In this document: positions 2,078 through 60,809 of the stretch, in pieces
How positions within the stretch are numbered: position 1 is the stretch's first letter
How the letters are laid out: every line of letters starts with the position of its first letter
Translations under genes and position numbers: made by a program
The notes under the pieces: generated by a model
Database searches by the model: none
Seen by the model: the letters and a program-made list of their open reading frames with translations, nothing else
Told to the model about the DNA's origin: nothing
Source: Chrysoperla carnea
Lineage: Eukaryota > Arthropoda > Insecta > Neuroptera > Chrysopidae
Direction of reading: 5' to 3'
Assembly: GCF_905475395.1 (NCBI RefSeq)
Contig: NC_058341.1
Location: forward strand, 34,673,501 to 34,737,500
Length of the DNA stretch: 64,000 bases

Positions 2078-4393
2078 CCTATATGATTATCTTTATATTT
2101 TAACTTATTTATAAAAGCAATAAAAGCACTGATATTCAACTTTGTGTATGTAGGATATTTAGGCAATTAACTCAATTGTTTATTTTCCCTTTTTTTTTCA
2201 ATACTCATCGTTTATCGATAATATAAACGGCGGGAATTCACATAATAGGCTAAAAATGTATCTTGAAGGGATTTTAACAATGCGAGTGGTGTACGAGAGT
2301 TTGGTTCTATTTTTCGGGCTAGGGAATGGAATGGTGTGTATACCCTTTAGGTTAGAAGAGACAATATGAGTGTAACAACATCTTACGATCTATAAAGTAT
2401 ATTGTATTTATACCTATTTTCTAGGTTTCGAACACCTTTCAATATTCGAAGAACTCTCTATACACTTATAAATTTTAATTTATTTACTTTTTTTATAATT
2501 AGTAATATTTATAGCGCAACAAGCAGCCACTTCATTTTTTTACAAACTATAACTTTATCCATATACATACATACATAGAATTATTAACACACGCAAATTA
2601 TAATTTTTAATAATAATTCTAAATCATTTACAATATTTATGCTCTACCAATTTTTTTTCTATTTTTTATATTACGTATATATTTTTGTGTGTATTTTACT
2701 TCCATAATTAAACCACTTAATTATGTATGTGATTATGAAAAAATTTTTGTTTGCAAAAACATAATCAAAGTCCTGGCATAATACGCTGACATGCTCAAAG
2801 GATATAACAGCCAGTGAAAGTATGTCGGATTTTCCTTGGGGAAATGCCCTGCTTTTGAGATATGAATTTTTAAAGCTCAAACATGGATTAAATAAATAAA
2901 TATACGCCTTCAGGAACGTACTATTTGGCTTAAAAGAAAAATGGAGATTTTTATTCAATTTGCATTTTCTTTTCGCTAAATATCTTGCATAATAGGATGA
3001 GAAGTCCATCATTCAACTTAATTCGGAAAAGGGAACATTCTATACCTAAAATAAGCGCATATAAATATTTATTTTCGTTATATAAAATCGCTGATTAAGT
3101 TGATTAAGTCTGGAATAATGTTGTGAACAGTATGTAAGTTCTCAGGTGAATATAATCCAGGTAAAAGTTATCAAAGGCGTGTATCATTACTTATATTTAA
3201 ATTTTAACCTCCATATTTCAAAAACAAGTATTTTTGGGACTTTATACCTCTGGCGAGTCTACTGTTGAACGAGACCAAAATTAGACTAATTTGATTATAT
3301 ATGTCTGGGTATTTCGGTTTTGCTCTTAAAGGACAAGTAGTAATTCGTACAACAGATATGTTAGACTCGTAAAAGTTGAAAACAAAAACGGAAATTTCCT
3401 AATTGTGTGCACTAAAACCCCAAACGAAAAAAAAACTATCAACATAAGTTCTTCACTTAAGAATGTTTCATAAAAATCACATCATTAGCTACGTGAAAAT
3501 AGCACCTCCAAAGGCGATTTTTCATAAAATGCTGATGACAAAAAGCTTTCTTCACATTTGTTCATCCTCTCATTGAAAGTTGTGCTCAAATTTTCGTTTC
3601 TCTACCCTCGAATTGAAAGTTATGGTATCAGACGTAAAAAAACTGTGCTTTTTATCAAAATTACTTTTTGCGTTAATTTTGGGATATTGTTTATATGCCT
3701 ACTATTAAATTCATCATTTGTTTTATAAAAATGAAGCCTAGTTGATTACAACGCATCTATTCAAATTCGATTGAATAATTAATGATAATTGCACTTTTTG
3801 TTACTTACTCTGTAGGTCAGCTTTCAGAAAAAATAAATGATTGTCTAAATCATTAAGACAATCGGTACTAATGTACAAATTTCGAATATTAAACTTTGAA
3901 AAGTAATAAACTTAAAATTACTAATTGTTTATTTACGAAAAAAATTTGGACTTCATCAGGTATCATTACCCAAAAACACAGATTGTTAGACGAAGGCTAA
4001 AACTTCATCTATAAATACAATACGAATGCTGAAACTTGTTCATTTGATCTTAATATAAAAAGGTTTCAGACATAGGCAAATGAATCTACAACAGAAAATT
4101 TGAACCATGTGTGAATAGTGAATATTAAGTTTATTAAAAATTATTATATGTTCGATAAATTGATAATGCGAAAAAGAATTAACACTTGTAACATTTGAAT
4201 TTAGAGAAAAATAGACCGAAAAAAATTTCTCTAATAGTATCCCATTTTGAACGCAAGGACTTCAAACTTCAGAGCCTAGCCAACTCCTCTATAGTCGACA
4301 AACTAAACCCAATCAAGTCATAATTACAACAATAATCTGGGTGTACGGTAACATTTATTTAATACTAGTGAATTTTGAAAATTTAAAGAATTC
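2078..4393. other. Intergenic, no gene recognised
   Basis: AT-rich non-coding sequence. A 113-codon open frame on the minus strand (2671-3012) has no domain, signal peptide or family resemblance that I recognise, and no convincing splice neighbours. I do not call it a gene. Confidence 0.5.
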
Positions 4394-24400: not shown

Positions 24401-27400
24401 ATGTATTTCTTATGTGCTTATATATGGAGCCATTCAACTGTTTTGAGAATAGGATTCAAACCAAGTTTAACTTTTTAGTGCCTAAAGTTATAGGATAGTC
24501 TTGCCTCTCGAAAGCAAAAAAAAGTAAACATGTGCACATAGAAAGTAAATACTGTTTTAAATTTTGGTATTTGAAATGAGATAGGAAAGTTTATCCCGTG
24601 TAGGTGGAAAAACTATTCTCAGATACATTTTTGTGGAAAAAGACAAAGAACATTTATTTCATGCTACTTTGCTTTCAAACACTTCCAGTTTTAAGCGGAG
24701 TTTATTTTCTATAAATTTTCGCCTCTCAATTTTTTTCGTTATCTTGTTTTGAAATACCAAAGCATCGATTTTTCTGGCAGATAATCTGACTTGTTCCTCT
24801 TTTACAGAGTTCTGTGTATTTATTGTAGATTCTCTTTATGTCTCAATTGTCCTTAAATAAATCCCAAGCAATAAACGATATTTTGAAACACCTGATTATC
24901 CAAATTTTTTTTATGGCAAAATGTTCATTTTTCATGTAAATTTATAAATTTCACTTACACTAGAATGAATTTCACTTACTTTCAGTTAGTTGTTTGTTTG
25001 CTTTGCGTGTTTTTATTTGATTTTAATCAAACGAAATCTCTTTTTATCTTTTACTACGGTAAAATGTCCTAAATATTTTGCTCTTTAATAGCACATAGAT
25101 TTAGTTAGGATGTTTGCTATATTTCTTATTCAAACCGCAGATGAATTTTCCAATTTTTAATGGATTGTCCGTAAATAAGCCCTAAACTTGTTTATATATT
25201 CCCACATTGTATGTACAACCAAACAAACCATTTGAGGTTTTTTAAAGCAATATAAATATTAAAAAGACATATTTATAGTTGTCATAACCTGCATATATAC
25301 TCCTTAGAATATATAAAATCCCTGGAATGTATACCATAACATAACATTTAGATTTATACTACAGCACATGTATATTTATTATTCCTGTATACGTAATATA
25401 TTTTCAACCTTGTAAAGGAAAAACAGGTTTGAATCCAGTTGGGGTCCCTGTAACAACTGTAAACTCTACATGACACCATCTCTTTTAGTTAGATTGATTA
25501 AATTGGAAAGTTGACCGTGGCTAATTGGTAGTGGCCCTTCTTAATCCATTTGGAGGATTGACCATTTAGTTATTTTTTCATAATAATTCTTTAACCACTC
25601 ATCAAAATTTGCTTTCAAACATTATCAATTTTAAATGTTTTATCAAGTTCAAAACGAAAAGAAACAAATTGAATCGCAGGGAAATAGGACTAGGAATATA
25701 AAATCAAAACTTTACAGTTGATTTAGTTGGACGTGTTCTCTCTTTATTGAGATTTCTTCAGCGACTACAAATTATAATTATCAAAATTACAATATAATCT
25801 CCAATACATAAGTACTTAGAAAAAATAAATTAAATGAACAAATAAAAATTCAGGAATTCGTTTAACTTCCTTGTGATTTGATTATCAAATTTTTCGGATC
25901 TTCTAATCTCTCTTCCCACGGTTTCTTGGAATCTTTTCTCAAAATTCTGCTACATAATAACAGAACATAAACTCAAAACCGGACTTTATCCTACTGAATG
26001 ATTTACGGTAGTAGTCGTTTGTGAATGTGATTCCTCTTACTTTGCCGTTATGGCTTTGATGTTAAGATTTTCCACAAGTTTAATCATTTTTTGGCTATAT
26101 TTTAACACTAGTTTCTGGCTATACTTGCCAAAATATCGTGTAGAATACTTCTGCTTTTTATGTATAATAAGGAAAGACCATTTAAGTTCTCTTTCACAGC
26201 AGCAATTTGACCATCCAAAACGAGCGATTGTTTTCTATTTTGAACATTAATGTGAGTAATCATGGAATCTCCCATATTAAAATTGGTGTTCTTCAGCTAA
26301 CAAATATAGATTTAAATAGTGGTGTCCCTGGTGGTGAAAGAAGGCTTTATTTTCTGCGTTTGTATTCTAAAGCAAACGTTATAATTTCGATAAACGTTAT
26401 AAAGTCTATGCCCCTCTCAAAATTTAATTCTACACCCGCCCTTGAGTAAAACTACTTTACCATATTCTATCCATATGACGTACGGGACACACACATAACA
26501 AAACAAACTGAAAGAAAATCGTATAAATAATTTAAATATAATATTTTTTTCATATATTTTTCTTGTTGATATTTTCAGGAAGCATATCCAGTTAAATTGA
26601 AGGAAGTTCATGTTGTGAATGTATCACCATTGGTTGATACAATTGTCAATTTCGTAAAACCATTTATTAAGGAAAAAATCCGTAATCGTATTCACATTCA
26701 TTCAGATATGGAATCATTACATAAATTTATACCAAAAGATGTCTTACCAGAAGAATATGGTGGTACTGCTGGCAAACTTCAAGTATTCCATGGTGAGTGG
26801 ATTATTGAACAAACATATAAAATGGATCTGATTCAAAATATAAAAAATGATTAATCATTCTAATTTCTCTTTTACCTCGAAAATCACATAGTTATCCTTT
26901 ACTAACATGCTTATTCCAAAATAAGGAAGTCATACTTGTTCAGGCCATTATTTATAAGCTCTAGTGAGGACAACTTTCAGGAGCTTTGGTAATAATAAGA
27001 GTCCAAATATTGAACTGGAAACTTGATTCCATGAGCAGTCCCACAACCGCTATCTTTTTTTCACAATTTTGAAAATGAAGTTAAAAGTGTAAAATTGACT
27101 TGTAGAACCTGAATGGAAATGTTTTAGCAAGAAGTAAACTTGGGACGTTGGCTTTGTTTTGTAAAGAAGACAATGGCGAAGATACTATTTACCTATCCCG
27201 TTATTATTGAATGTACTAGTTAAAATATACTAGGACCATTTTATCTATACTTACAAGAAATTTTTTTGTGCATAAGATTTAATATTCTATTACTAATTTT
27301 TCTTTGCTTATTCTGATAGATCAATGGATGAAAACTCTTGAAGAATACCAACCATGGTTTGACGAACAAGAAAATATTAAAGCCGATGAATCAAAACGTC

Positions 27401-51732: not shown

Positions 51733-54700
51733 ATGAAGTGCTTAAAATTGCAGATGATTTTCACAATTGGTACCTGTTTAATACCATCGTTATATAAGAC
51801 AGCACCCATAGATTATAACAATACAAGAAACAGAAGTATCAACATAAATAATAAGAATTATAATAATAATAATAATAACAATAATAAAGATGTGGTTGTT
51901 CATAAAACAACAAATGGCAATAGTTATGATTACAATAAAGTATTAAATTTAAGTTTATTATTTTATGAAGCACAGCGTAGTGGTTATATACATAATAATA
52001 CACGTATATCATGGCGTAGTGATTCTGGATTAAATGATCGAGGACAACATGGTGAAGATTTAATAGGCGGTTATTATGATGGTAATTATTATTATCTCTA
52101 TCATATTATTTATTATATGGTGTGAGCCATAAGTCTCCTACCTGGATAATATTAGAGTAACTAGAAAACTACTAGATACTAACTATATACTAACCGAGCT
52201 TTGCTCTTGATTCATTTTAAATAAAATCTCGCTAGAGCGATTTTTTGCACCCGAAACCTCCTGCATACTAAATTTCACGAAAATCGTTTGACTCGTTTCC
52301 GAGAGGAAACGACGTTTTCTTAAAATGAAACCTAGCTAGATCAATTTTTTTCCAATAAAAACCCCTGCATATTAAACGTGTATAAAAAGAATTTTTTCAT
52401 CCACAAAGAAGACAGAAATTTTCTTCTGCATCTAGCTACCCCTGCTTACAGAGAGATGCAATAAGATGATAAAATATTTCAATATTTCCATTGCTCAATG
52501 AAAATTTATCAGGGTCAATGAAAACTTCTTGTTTTAGAAACATTTATAAGTTTAAGAAGTTAAGATAAATAAATAATTTTACCTTTATATTTGTATTTAA
52601 CTATAACTTTACACATTTTTAGCCGGAGATTTCGTTAAATTCGGTTTTACCATGGTATTTACAACAACCATGTTAGCATGGGGTTTATTATCATATAAAG
52701 ATGCATACACAGATGCAGGTAATTATTTAAATTATTTTGTTTGCATAAATAAATTGGCAACAATTGTTTTAAATTACAAATACAAATTTAATTATTTAGG
52801 TCAATATAAAGAATGTTTAAATGCATTAAAATGGGCAACTGATTATTTTATTAAATGTCACGTTAGTCCAAATGAATTTTATGGTCAAATTGGTGATTTT
52901 CAATTGGATCATAAATATTGGGGTCGACCCGAAGATATGAATTTAAGTCGACCAGCATTTAAAATAGATGCAGATCATCCAGGATCAGATTTGGCTGGTG
53001 AGGCTGCTGCAGCAATGGCATCTGTTAGCTTGGTGTTTAAAGATATCGATGATAACTATTCACAAATATTGAAAAAGCATGCAATTGAATTGTATGATTT
53101 TGCTATCAACCATCGTGGATTATTCCATCAATCTATTCCAAGTGCTACACAATATTATGAGTAAGTAAACATTAAGGAAAATTGTTTGATCGGAAGAACA
53201 AACCTCCTATTGCTTAATGGAAGCATTAGTGTCAACCAGGAAATAGTGCTTGTTGTATTGAAATCAAAAACCTTTTACGAGCCCAAGCAAGTAGCTATAT
53301 TTTGAATAGCCCTTCATGCAATACATCTTCATGCAAATTCTTTTGGTCAAATTCTGATGTCATAGTTCCAGTGCCAATCCCATCAACGTAGTACCTAATA
53401 ATATAATCAAGACCTAGCCTAAAACAAGACTTTATTACTTGATTAATATTGTCTACATCCTGAGATTCGCCTTTGGTCTCGCTCTTGAACATTAAACTTG
53501 GTTTTACCGAGTGAAAAGCCAAGACTGTGTAAGACAATGATGTAAAAGTCGTAAGACTAAATATCTAAGATAAAAGAGACCAAATATAATTTTGAAGGCC
53601 CAAAACTAATGTACATGAGTACTGCCCAAACATATAAATAAATGCGCTTGTGCGCAAGATAAGAATGGCTAAATATAGTTTTACTTATTACTAGTACAAC
53701 AACACCCTATTTGATATCCGGTAGAGTAGCATTAATTGAAAAGAGCCATCAATCTGATTTCAGTCAGTGAGCCAAATAGTAATCCGATGTTGCCATTTAG
53801 GAGACCACAATTTACTAAAAAATCAAAATTACCTCTAAAATTATTTTAAATATATTTCTTTTTTTTCAGATCAACTGGTTATGCAGATGAATTAATTTGG
53901 GCAGCACTTTGGCTATTCAAGGCAACAAACGAATCCAAATATTTAGACGAAGCAGAAATCAACTACCGTAAATTTAGATTACAAGAACGTCCAAATGATT
54001 TCTTTTATGATAAAAAAGTGGCTGGTGTTCAAGTTCTTCTAGCACAATTAACCTATGATGAAGAGTATAGAAAAGCAGCTCAAGCATTTTGTGATCATAC
54101 TGTAGATAATCAAAAGCGTACACCCAAAGGGCTAGTCTTTATTGACAACGAAGGCACTTTGTCGCATGCAGCAAATGTTGCATTTGTGTGTTTACAGGTA
54201 CCTATTGTAACAGATAATTTTCTAATTTTCCATATTTTAATATTTAATTTTATGTCTTTTAGGCAGCTGATGTGGGAATTTCACCTAGAAAATATCGTGA
54301 TTTTGCAAAACAACAAATTAATTATATGCTAGGAGACACTGGACGTAGTTTTGTTGTTGGTTTTGGTGAAAACTATCCAAAACAACCTACACATGCTGCC
54401 AGGTTATTATGTTTTTCATTTTTTGTTTGAGAAAAAGACATCAGAGATGGCCAATTCTAATCTATCAAAATTTGATAATTTGGGTTCAAAAAATACAAAA
54501 ATCAGACTCGTTTAACAATTAAATCAATAGTTTTTGAATTATTGCCAAAAATCATATAAGAAGAGCTTTTATTTCAGAGCGATTTTTGAGATGATTTAAG
54601 AAATACTCATTTAATCGACAAATGAGCTATGTTTTCAAGTTTAATTTCTCTATTTAATACAGACACACGAAAACACCGTTGATTATAAGTTATCGACTAA

Positions 54701-57025
54701 AGAAATTGCTCCGTTTTGTTTGCTCCATACACGATTTTAGCCGATATCTCCCAATGTATTCGGCCAATCGTCAAATAAACCCAATTTTTACAATTTATAG
54801 GCCCAAACTACTCTAAAAAAAGAATTTTTTCCAAATAGGACACGACAATAATTTCCTGACTTTTTGTAATTTTCTTCGTAGAGGTAATTTGAACCTGAAA
54901 AATACAAAAATCCAGTTCATTCAACGATTAAGAGAGTAGATTTTGAGACCTACTAAAGATTAATTCAAATAAATTTTTTATATATTCCATTCTATCTACA
55001 TGATATCGGACTGCTAATTATTTAAAATAATTACTGCTCTACTTTTGAATGATCAACTAAATCTTAAAAAATGTTGAAATTCCATTAGTCAGACGCTTAG
55101 TGGCACACAACTTATGTTTTTTATAAATCAAAACTTTTTCTTTTATTATCATAAAATCATAAAAATAATATTTATAGTATTACCTCTATCTTTATAAAGA
55201 TTGCAAAAACTTTTATTAAGTAAACTTTTCTGCAATAAAAGTATTATGATAAAATTTCTTTAGTGTCATATAAGTATGTATAGTTTTCACAAACAATACT
55301 CGTCCAAGATTATTCTATGACGTATATGTAATATGTGCATGAGTTAGTAAAGAAAATTAAAGTTGATTTCCTTGGAGATTCCTTCACTGTTTGTTCAAAA
55401 TGTTTGTTTGTAATCTATGTTTGTTATACAGAATGTCTTCTAAGTATTTAACCACCGGTAATAAGTTTTGTAGGATACAGTAGATACAGAATAGGTATTT
55501 ACTCTACTAGTGATATAACAGCGTTATTAAAGTACGCCTGCGAAATGTGCTTTGTCTACGCCTCTAAAATGTGAAAATAAACGATTATTATTATTTAAAA
55601 TTTGTCACGACTTATTGAGAAAATAGAAAAGTGGTAATGAATTCATTATCACACTAGGGTGGTAATGAACTATTTTTCCTACGCATACTGAGTGAAAAAA
55701 GTACTTCTTTCTCACGGGTGTAGATAAAAAATTTTCAAACCAAATTTTTGGGTCTTAATTTCATCTTATTGCTAAGTTATTATAAAATGAAGTTTCCTTT
55801 AAGATGAATAGATTCGGCAAAATTTTGTTTTCGTTAGATAAAGATTTCCTAGATTCCTTAAATGTTTTCATCTATCTCTCAGCATTATCAGAAATTAGCA
55901 TATAAAATAAACCTACATAAATGGAACAGATAAATGGATTTTTCATTTAACTTTTGCTAACTAATTTTGGATTGTAAAAAAAATTCATATCCCATAAAAC
56001 CTTTTTCTTCGAAGGGTGGCTAAGTACTTTTGAGACACGCTGTATATTAAAAAACTGACATTGAGAGTACCATCATCATCGGATGTAGAACAATAATTTT
56101 TCAGATCATAAATTTAATTCATATAGTTAGTTATGATTAGAATGTACAAGGTGATCCAATGATGAAGGTACGATTACATTCAAAACTTTCTTAAAAGTCA
56201 TAATAATGTAATATTTATTCGAATAATCCAATATGAGTAGCGATACAATTTCATTAAGGTTGCATTGAAATTTAACATTTAAAAAAAAATGAAGCTAAGC
56301 TTAGTCTATCGATTTAAGTCGAGATTGCTCGCTCTGAATATCAGGTGATAGTGTATATGGGCTATCACCCCTATTATTGGAGACCTAAGACGAAACTATT
56401 TGTCATATAGCTGGTAAATTTTGATATTATCATGTAGATGGTATTCTGCTAAGAGTTAAAAAGCAAAAACCATATCTCCTTGGAGTTTTTGATAGCAAGT
56501 ATTACTATTACTATTGTACAAATTTTTAATTAATCAATCAACAATTTTGATGGTCAAACGACCCCTTAATAATGTAGAAGGGTGGGACACTTTCTAATCA
56601 GCCTTTCTGTAAATTCGAAAATTTTTTAAACACAAACTATCTTTGAAATAACAATAAAAACAATAAAAACTTTAAATAATTTTTGGAAAATCACCAAAAT
56701 ATTAAAAAATGACCTTCTTCAACGATTGGCTATCTTCCTTTAAATTATTATATCCAAAAATTAATTAATTTATTTATTACTACTATTATTAATTTACAGT
56801 TCATGCCCGGATCCACCAGAACCATGTGATTGGTCTGCATACAAATCGAACGCTTCAAATCCACACATATTATATGGTGCTCTAGTATCTGGACCAAATG
56901 AAAACGATGATTATGTCGATTTACGTGAAGAACACATATATAACGAAGTAACATTAGAATTTAATGCTGGCTTTCAAAGTGCTGTTGCTGGATTAAGACA
57001 TCTTCAATTAATAAATTATTTGTGA
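51733..57025 (+). CDS. Secreted GH9 endoglucanase-like protein (6 exons, 499 aa)
   Basis: Glycoside hydrolase family 9 (inverting endo-beta-1,4-glucanase family), probably secreted into gut or salivary lumen. Coding exons are 51733-52081, 52623-52718, 52800-53160, 53870-54197, 54263-54402 and 56800-57025; all junctions are GT-AG and the frame closes at 500 codons. A hydrophobic N-terminus (residues 5-20) suggests a signal peptide and is followed by an Asn-rich linker with an N8 run (44-51). The catalytic domain starts at [20 protein letters not shown] (65-84) and fills the rest; there is no carbohydrate-binding module. The catalytic motif DAGD (116-119) is assembled across the exon 1/2 junction. 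[30 protein letters not shown] and SFVVGFG are typical. Asp465 and the acid Glu474 ([12 protein letters not shown]) are present. Odd: Thr421 and Ala423 stand where signature 1 has His and Arg. Tyr stands where a Trp is common before DKK, and Thr where Pro is common after KFGF. The fold looks intact, but activity is uncertain. Confidence 0.96.
52195..52345 (+). repeat. Retroelement-like fragment in GH9 intron 1
   Basis: It contains CCGAGCTTTGCTC, a TACTAAATTTCACGAAAATC block and GTTTCCGAG. This arrangement is common in the tails of short insect retroelements and similar in kind to 16645-17090. No open frame. Confidence 0.4.
53180..53800. other. Less AT-rich segment inside GH9 intron 3
   Basis: Most of this 709-bp intron is less AT-rich than the other introns. 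It contains an 80-codon minus-strand frame (53295-53537) that I cannot assign. It may be an inserted transposable-element piece. Confidence 0.3.
55427..56044. mobile_element. TA-flanked inverted-repeat element (MITE) in GH9 intron 5
   Basis: The left end TACAGAATGTCTTCTAAGTA and the right end TACTTTTGAGACACGCTGTA are imperfect reverse complements of about 30 bp, the match extending to TTAACCACC / GGTGGCTAA. Each end is flanked by TA (55425-55426 and 56045-56046). The 618-bp interior has no transposase. Tc1/mariner-type target preference fits. Confidence 0.65.
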
Positions 57026-59813: not shown

Positions 59814-60809
59814 TTACTTTTTTTCATTTATTGTTTGCAACATGGTGAAATATGAAAATGCCGTTCTCACAATCTGGAAAAATAAATAATGATTAGGAAA
59901 TATTTATTACCTGTAACCATCCATACATGATTGCATGTATTTCATGAAAACTGTAGTTTAACTATTTGTCAGAATCTAAATTTAACAATGTGGTTAGTAG
60001 GTACGGTTTATAAAATGAGAAAGCTTTAAAAATGTTTTCGATGAAGACGTTGATAAAAAGATCAGAAGGTACATTAACGAAGGTTCAAAATAGGTGTAAA
60101 TATAAACGACGCAGGCAGGAGTCTTATAAACGTCAAAGGGTTGACAATAGATTCACGGCGAAAAAGTCTTTATCGAAAGCTTTTTTATTACGGGTCTCGT
60201 GAAATAGACTTGCTGCCTGCCTTACTTTGGAATAAGGGCGGGCTCCATGAACTAACTCTGTACGTATTTGTTTGTTTAAAAATCCAAAAAACAGCAGACG
60301 AATAACAATCCAAAGATCGGATAACCATAGAAAACTGCGCATATTTAGAAAATCGAAGCGAATCGTCATAAACGGAACTTAAACTGCGTGGGTATGTACA
60401 TTAAATGCGATTAATTTGCCATTCAGCACTGAAATATATAAAGGAAACGTTCCATTATAATTCAAGGCAGTTTTCTAATCGACCAGGCATTGTGGAAAAC
60501 TGATAATTTTGGGTTCATTTTATTTGTATGGTTTCGATTAACATTATACGGTGTTCGTACAATCCTATTGTACTTTTCTATTCGTTTAGATTTTGACAAA
60601 TATTTAGATAGCTTATTATGATATTTTCCAAATGCAAAATAAATAATTTTTACCGAAATATATGTTTGAACAGATAAACGGAAAAATTTTCCACCAGTTA
60701 AAATAACCGGTTTGTTACATCGCATCAATATCAATTGCATTGAAGTTTTAAAACGTTTATTACAAACGTACCATGGACATTCATAGATGGAGTTTCTAAT
60801 CGATACACT
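59814..60809 (-). CDS. Odorant receptor (7tm_6), last two coding exons only
   Basis: Insect odorant receptors are ligand-gated cation channel subunits in the membrane of olfactory neurons, working with the co-receptor Orco. Two minus-strand exons are seen. The penultimate is 60809-60654 (52 codons, preceded by an AG acceptor, followed by GTAAAA); the last is 59873-59814 (19 codons plus TAA, preceded by TTTTTCCAG). Both are phase 0, separated by a 780-bp intron. The first encodes the conserved C-terminal block, with SIYECPWY, LILMRCNKPVILTGGKFF and LSVQTYIS; the second encodes the classical receptor ending TAFSYFTMLQTINEKK. Together they cover the seventh transmembrane helix and the region before it. 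I scanned the minus strand up to 64000 and found no convincing upstream exon, so the rest lies beyond the window, in unrecognised short exons, or is lost. No frameshift or stop is present in the exons seen. Confidence 0.85.

Follow-up and report, generated by a model that had tools for sequence, protein, structure and literature searches.

Members of glycoside hydrolase family 9 (GH9), which is believed to date to the animal ancestor (PMC4221708), include the termite enzyme NtEgl (PDB 1ks8, 1ksc and 1ksd), Cel9A of T. fusca (1js4) and Cel9I of C. thermocellum (2xfg). A passage of PMC4579020 lists 13 oligosaccharide-binding residues conserved among Cel9I, Cel9G and Cel9A (His126, Trp129, Phe205, Tyr206, Trp209, Trp256, Asp261, Asp262, Trp314, Arg318, His376, Arg378 and Tyr419), and the conserved residues of the family are described in a section of PMC4806347 as chiefly contacting the +1 site. 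Here we describe a GH9 gene in a 64,000-nucleotide stretch of the genome of the lacewing Chrysoperla carnea (contig NC_058341.1, positions 34,673,501 to 34,737,500; the window). Its protein keeps the catalytic carboxylates and has replaced six conserved residues, five of them published substrate contacts. Judged from sequence, it is probably an animal-lineage GH9 protein in which much of the cleft's acceptor side is gone, and it would now be either a pseudo-endoglucanase or a protein whose ligand has changed.

NtEgl was the best of 22 matching solved sequences (1ks8, E 1.4e-162). It aligns with the window protein without gaps over 427 residues, 233/427 of them identical, and shares its carboxylates (Asp54, Asp57 and Glu412 in NtEgl); the two differ where NtEgl has Trp301, Arg305, His359, Arg361, Tyr408 and Tyr417 and the window protein has Glu, Ser, Thr, Ala, His and Phe, respectively. 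Cel9A and Cel9I (47% and 41% identity) have the same domain and catalytic triad. Unlike them, the window protein has no carbohydrate-binding module, PF00759 being the sole Pfam domain found in it, and it has lost five of the 13 listed contacts, plus three that also differ in NtEgl. A GH9 domain that serves something other than cellulose digestion occurs in the exo-acting glucosidase/glucosaminidase of Vibrio, in which long loops block binding past the −1 subsite, according to a passage of PMC6096475; the window protein has no insertion relative to NtEgl, and on this ground we rejected an exo-type GH9 with blocking loops. A further likeness is with beetle plant-cell-wall enzymes whose catalysis is lost or seemingly lost and which are nevertheless maintained: such insect pseudoenzymes are known for GH28 and suspected for GH45, as reported in parts of PMC6549527 and PMC6509783. 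Those proteins belong to multigene families and stand beside active copies, whereas the window protein is the sole family member found and keeps its carboxylates.

Substrate contacts of the Chrysoperla GH9 protein

Bacterial GH9 domains were collected by scanning contigs with an alignment of the window protein, 1ks8 and 3wc3. The best 80 loci of 309 relatives, among at least 595 stretches, gave 82 open frames and 81 aligned domains longer than 330 residues. The set is biased in that its members were picked by similarity to the query and Paenibacillus and Micromonospora recur, and the conservation of the DAGD motif within it is partly due to selection because the scan patterns include DAGD. Three columns were invariant in all 81 domains: that of residue 363 (Trp; Glu in the window protein), that of residue 367 (Arg; window Ser) and that of residue 421 (His; window Thr). 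At residue 423, where the window protein has Ala, Arg was found in 79/81 domains (1 Ala, 1 Asp); at residue 470 (window His), Tyr in 71/80 (8 Phe, 1 Ala); and at residue 479 (window Phe), Tyr in 80/80. All six residues are retained in termite 1ks8 and in 3wc3. If Phe at 470 is scored as retention, a single one of the six residues is missing in each of three bacterial domains and no domain is missing two, save for two gaps in the truncated domain L040.

The catalytic residues are retained in full: Asp116, Asp119 and Glu474 align with T. fusca Asp55, Asp58 and Glu424 (3/3), and Asp465 aligns with NtEgl position 403, where 79/80 bacterial domains have Asp. The listed contacts are divided (PMC4579020, from its list of 13). 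His126, Trp129, Tyr206 and Asp261 are retained as His186, Trp189, Tyr268 and Asp316, and Phe205 is Tyr, as it also is in 33/81 bacterial domains. Trp209, Trp256 and Asp262 are missing or different in the window protein, which is uninformative because the termite enzyme differs there too. The other five, Trp314, Arg318, His376, Arg378 and Tyr419, have been lost from the window protein and are retained in the termite enzyme, 3wc3 and T. fusca Cel9A, so that five of the six changed columns are on the list. The substrate contacts W313, R317 and Y420 in T. fusca numbering are E363, S367 and H470 here. The changed columns were noticed before the list was found, and the list itself is independent of them. 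We take Trp313, His376 and Arg378 to form the +1 site in the crystal complex of T. fusca E4, and the sixth column, Tyr429 in T. fusca numbering (F479 in the window protein), presumably contacts substrate as well. Published subsite tables for individual GH9 residues were not found in the open-access literature.

The losses are concentrated at contacts. Leaving out the three catalytic residues, 94 columns were at least 95% conserved in the bacterial set and identical in NtEgl, 3wc3 and TfCel9A. The window protein departs at 12/94, comprising 4/7 listed contacts and 8/87 other columns (Fisher one-sided p = 0.0045, with columns treated as independent in this and the following tests). When TfCel9A Tyr429 was added as an assumed contact, the counts were 5/8 and 7/86 (p = 0.0007), so that 79/86 strongly conserved columns outside the contacts are kept. 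Repeating the first test with conservation cut-offs of 85%, 90% and 98% gave p = 0.002, 0.007 and 0.046. The protein thus combines an intact gene, conserved fold columns and losses enriched in the active site, as is looked for in a pseudoenzyme.

The original prediction, made from this DNA alone, held that Thr421 and Ala423 take the place of the signature His and Arg in an otherwise intact gene that keeps DAGD (116–119), Asp465 and Glu474. Our re-derived positions agree: Ser407–Pro420 fits the pattern as quoted there, the H-x-R of signature region II reads T421-H422-A423, and the rebuilt model places the retained residues at the same positions. Both departures are real, but the list was incomplete, since W363E, R367S, Y470H and Y479F are also changed. 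The interpretation built on it (loss of His and Arg, intact gene, retained carboxylates) therefore stands as far as it went, and the departure is larger than it allowed for. That five published contacts are changed moves the odds towards lost endoglucanase function.

Departures from the signature are not in themselves new, and one of them is in a cockroach, Panesthia cribrata. According to a passage of PMC6032398, the signature His is Val in Volvox and Ser in P. cribrata (Metazoa), and the signature Arg is Lys, Ser, Ala or Gly in other GH9 proteins, with Ala or Gly in many. The original prediction had allowed that wide occurrence of Thr and Ala would make the observation ordinary, and for single residues this is partly the case. 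The same reports would favour an ordinary working endoglucanase in which the changed residues are less important than thought. We regard this as highly improbable: the reported changes are taken singly, and all six residues are lost in 0/81 bacterial domains. Single His or Arg changes are thus already known. Neither a neuropteran GH9 nor the six-residue combination turned up among the open-access papers listed, in searches judged mostly by titles and abstracts, of which one was aimed at lacewing cellulase.

Gene structure, splicing and copy number

Rebuilt from sequence, the gene spans 51733–57025 on the plus strand and encodes 499 amino acids in six exons. All five introns are GT-AG, and the frame has no internal stop. 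The exons, and the intron that bears on the signature, are as follows.

51733..52081, plus strand: exon 1, hydrophobic N-terminus, Asn-rich linker, start of the catalytic domain, and Asp116 (52078-52080)
52623..52718, plus strand: exon 2, remainder of DAGD, with the catalytic base Asp119 (52628-52630)
52800..53160, plus strand: exon 3, retained binding residues His186, Trp189 and Tyr268
53870..54197, plus strand: exon 4, Asp316 retained; W315Y (54006-54008); lost contacts W363E (54150-54152) and R367S (54162-54164)
54263..54402, plus strand: exon 5, signature-1 region, with H421T (ACA, 54389-54391) and R423A (GCT, 54395-54397)
54403..56799, plus strand: intron 5, 2397 bases, donor CAG/GTTATT (slash marking the splice site) and acceptor TTTACAG
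56800..57025, plus strand: exon 6, Asp465, Y470H (56933-56935), catalytic acid Glu474 (56945-56947), Y479F (56960-56962) and stop

The single PF00759 domain scores 478.5 bits (E 3.5e-143) and is full-length, covering profile positions 1–443 of 444. The hydrophobic N-terminus of exon 1 is likely a signal peptide. An Asn-rich stretch at about 51840–51890 (plus strand) lies between this presumed signal peptide and the catalytic domain.

A different exon 5/6 junction, or a hidden micro-exon restoring H-x-R, had been named as a possible explanation of the signature departure, and this was not borne out. The junction does not account for Thr421 and Ala423 because both codons sit within exon 5, whose donor, at 54403, comes after them. 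Exon 5 has eight other GT dinucleotides ahead of this donor; their use would delete the motif, and H-x-R would be regained only with a micro-exon. No micro-exon with a GH9-like H-x-R was found in the three forward frames of intron 5, where the lone [PLIVM]-H-x-R, at 54723, is followed one residue on by a stop and has no GH9 context. The donor of intron 5 is not strong; the joined sequence, AASSCPDPP, aligns gap-free with homologues. Both alternatives were rejected on these grounds.

No second copy was found. A GH9 family search of the assembly (559,487,470 bases, 337 contigs) returned five matches, all within this gene, and matched 2/14 control genomes; a protein search at E ≤ 10 returned six matches, again all within it. 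These genome searches covered six frames and scored the best candidates only, and within those limits this is the sole GH9 gene found in the C. carnea assembly. In the window, a second copy was sought and only two chance-level matches were seen (E 4.9 and 7.9). A GH45 search returned no match in the assembly and none in the control genomes either, and hence is not evidence of absence.

Two other gene fragments were recognised in the window. An odorant-receptor exon (PF02949; 48 bits, E 1.2e-12, profile positions 256–308 of 313) lies at 60465–60809 on the minus strand, and a CRAL/TRIO exon (PF00650; 74.1 bits, E 1.4e-20) at 26570–26851 on the plus strand. The GC content of the window is 28.2% (0.282); chromosome values of 28.8–31.1% are given for this species in a section of PMC10116181.

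Ancestry, rate and constraint

The window protein was placed in a FastTree phylogeny together with four PDB enzymes and the 81 bacterial domains. It pairs there with the termite enzyme (support 0.986), and 3wc3 joins next (0.99), a placement consistent with an animal GH9 passed down the insect line. Transfer from bacteria is unlikely because of this grouping and the five introns. No relatives of the protein were found among viral contigs.

The six replacements are also unlikely to be recent. The minimum numbers of base changes from the conserved codon are 3 for W363E, 2 for R367S, 3 for H421T, 2 for R423A, 1 for Y470H and 1 for Y479F, 12 in total, and at least 12 base changes without loss of frame make a sequencing slip or a recent event improbable. 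Sequencing or assembly error is further argued against by the published C. carnea assembly, the likely source of this sequence, having been built from PacBio HiFi reads, as stated in part of PMC10116181. At the GC content of the window a random codon would be a stop with probability 0.083, giving about 41 expected in 499 codons; none was observed. No frameshift, stop or broken splice site was found, and as far as its sequence tells, the gene is not a recent pseudogene. The suggestion that it does not reflect simple decay is accordingly upheld by the open frame, the canonical splicing, the conserved non-contact columns and the at least 12 nucleotide changes in six codons.

The companion suggestion, that the protein is under constraint, holds only in part, as the lineage is clearly faster than the termite's. 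From the node common with the termite enzyme, the branch to the window protein measures 0.68 and that to the termite enzyme 0.23; without 13 flagged columns the values are 0.61 and 0.25. Tajima counts with 3wc3 as outgroup were 63 versus 31 (chi-square 10.9), or 50 versus 31 without the flagged columns (chi-square 4.5). The window protein thus appears to be evolving two to three times faster than the termite's, which fits a new role or partial relaxation.

These rates would suit a gene freed from selection after a change of diet, still readable, functionless and heading for loss, and the Coccinellidae, described in part of PMC11871716 as lacking GH9, offer a parallel. We nonetheless consider this outcome quite unlikely. 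Set against it are the absence of stops where about 41 would be expected at random, the five canonical introns, the 79/86 strongly conserved non-contact columns kept, the enrichment of losses at binding residues, and the number of nucleotide changes, from which the losses are not recent.

Function and biological context

The GH9 domain should adopt an (alpha/alpha)6 barrel. It retains the general base (Asp116/Asp119), the acid Glu474 and four binding residues, His186, Trp189, Tyr268 and Asp316. The residues that by homology would hold the acceptor side of a beta-1,4-glucan (Trp363, Arg367, His421 and Arg423) are replaced, and so are Tyr470 and Tyr479 next to the acid. The minus subsites could still be occupied by a glucan chain, but the grip on it across the scissile bond would be lost; cellulose would presumably not be hydrolysed at a useful rate and no useful endoglucanase activity would be expected. 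The protein may be kept to bind the end of a glucan, or some other ligand, in its minus subsites; at best it might cleave substrates that need little acceptor binding, with possible residual activity on activated aryl cellobiosides.

Alternatively, the protein may be an active enzyme with a new substrate. Its opened acceptor side would admit glycans that carry substituents or are not cellulosic (xyloglucan, mixed-linkage glucan, yeast or insect glycans), and the acid, the base and the donor side would continue to support catalysis. The full set of catalytic residues and the four listed binding residues kept would serve such an enzyme. PMC4806347, in one of its sections, ties the conserved GH9 +1 contacts to unbranched +1 sugars, and beetle GH45 proteins moved from cellulose to xyloglucan, a shift that the authors tie to active-site substitutions in a passage of PMC6509783. 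In the window protein, however, the Trp platform, two Arg and the His have been lost, and no new loop or insertion stands in for them (the alignment with NtEgl being ungapped), and Tyr470 and Tyr479 adjoining the acid are changed too. On balance we think a new-substrate enzyme unlikely.

Several points weigh against a protein that has lost its acceptor side and, with it, endoglucanase function. A purely non-catalytic protein would have no need of the three catalytic carboxylates and Asp465, all of which are kept, and faster evolution suits relaxed constraint as well as new function. The assignment of individual residues to subsites depends on the arrangement assumed for the T. fusca E4 complex. 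The comparison is with 81 related bacterial domains similar to the query and the termite enzyme as the only insect GH9, and the six changes could be common in Neuroptera or other insects. Single replacements in Panesthia and in algae are already in print (PMC6032398, in part), and single changes also exist among the bacterial domains, in three metagenome-assembled genomes (MAGs).

3001-4287: single-change comparator L030, Nostocaceae MAG, Arg to Ala
3001-4338: single-change comparator L062, Anaerolineae MAG, Arg to Asp
3001-4350: single-change comparator L056, Chitinispirillaceae MAG, Tyr to Ala

The larvae of C. carnea are predatory and the adults take pollen and nectar, as described in part of PMC10116181, and this diet may have lifted the pressure for a working cellulase. 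The authors of PMC11871716 link the absence of GH9 in the Coccinellidae (ladybirds, many of them carnivorous) to a shift from fungi to arthropod prey. GH9 is also given as absent in leaf beetles and weevils in a section of PMC3981738; other families may have taken over there. A more specific conjecture, which we offer tentatively and think improbable as it stands, is that in a lineage of predatory insects the sole GH9 cellulase has become a one-sided receptor for glucan or a protein that binds glucan ends, with the donor half and carboxylates kept and the acceptor half erased. Instead of digesting glucan, it would sense or bind that of microbes or plants (fragments of yeast or pollen walls, for example).

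Annotation pipelines would presumably label this gene an endoglucanase. If it is indeed a kept pseudo-cellulase, a digestive enzyme family would here have been put to a new use through its only copy, with no duplicate, which is unusual. The gene would then be a natural experiment showing which half of the GH9 cleft is required for catalysis. It would also serve as a warning that the presence of a GH9 gene alone is no ground for inferring that an insect digests cellulose.

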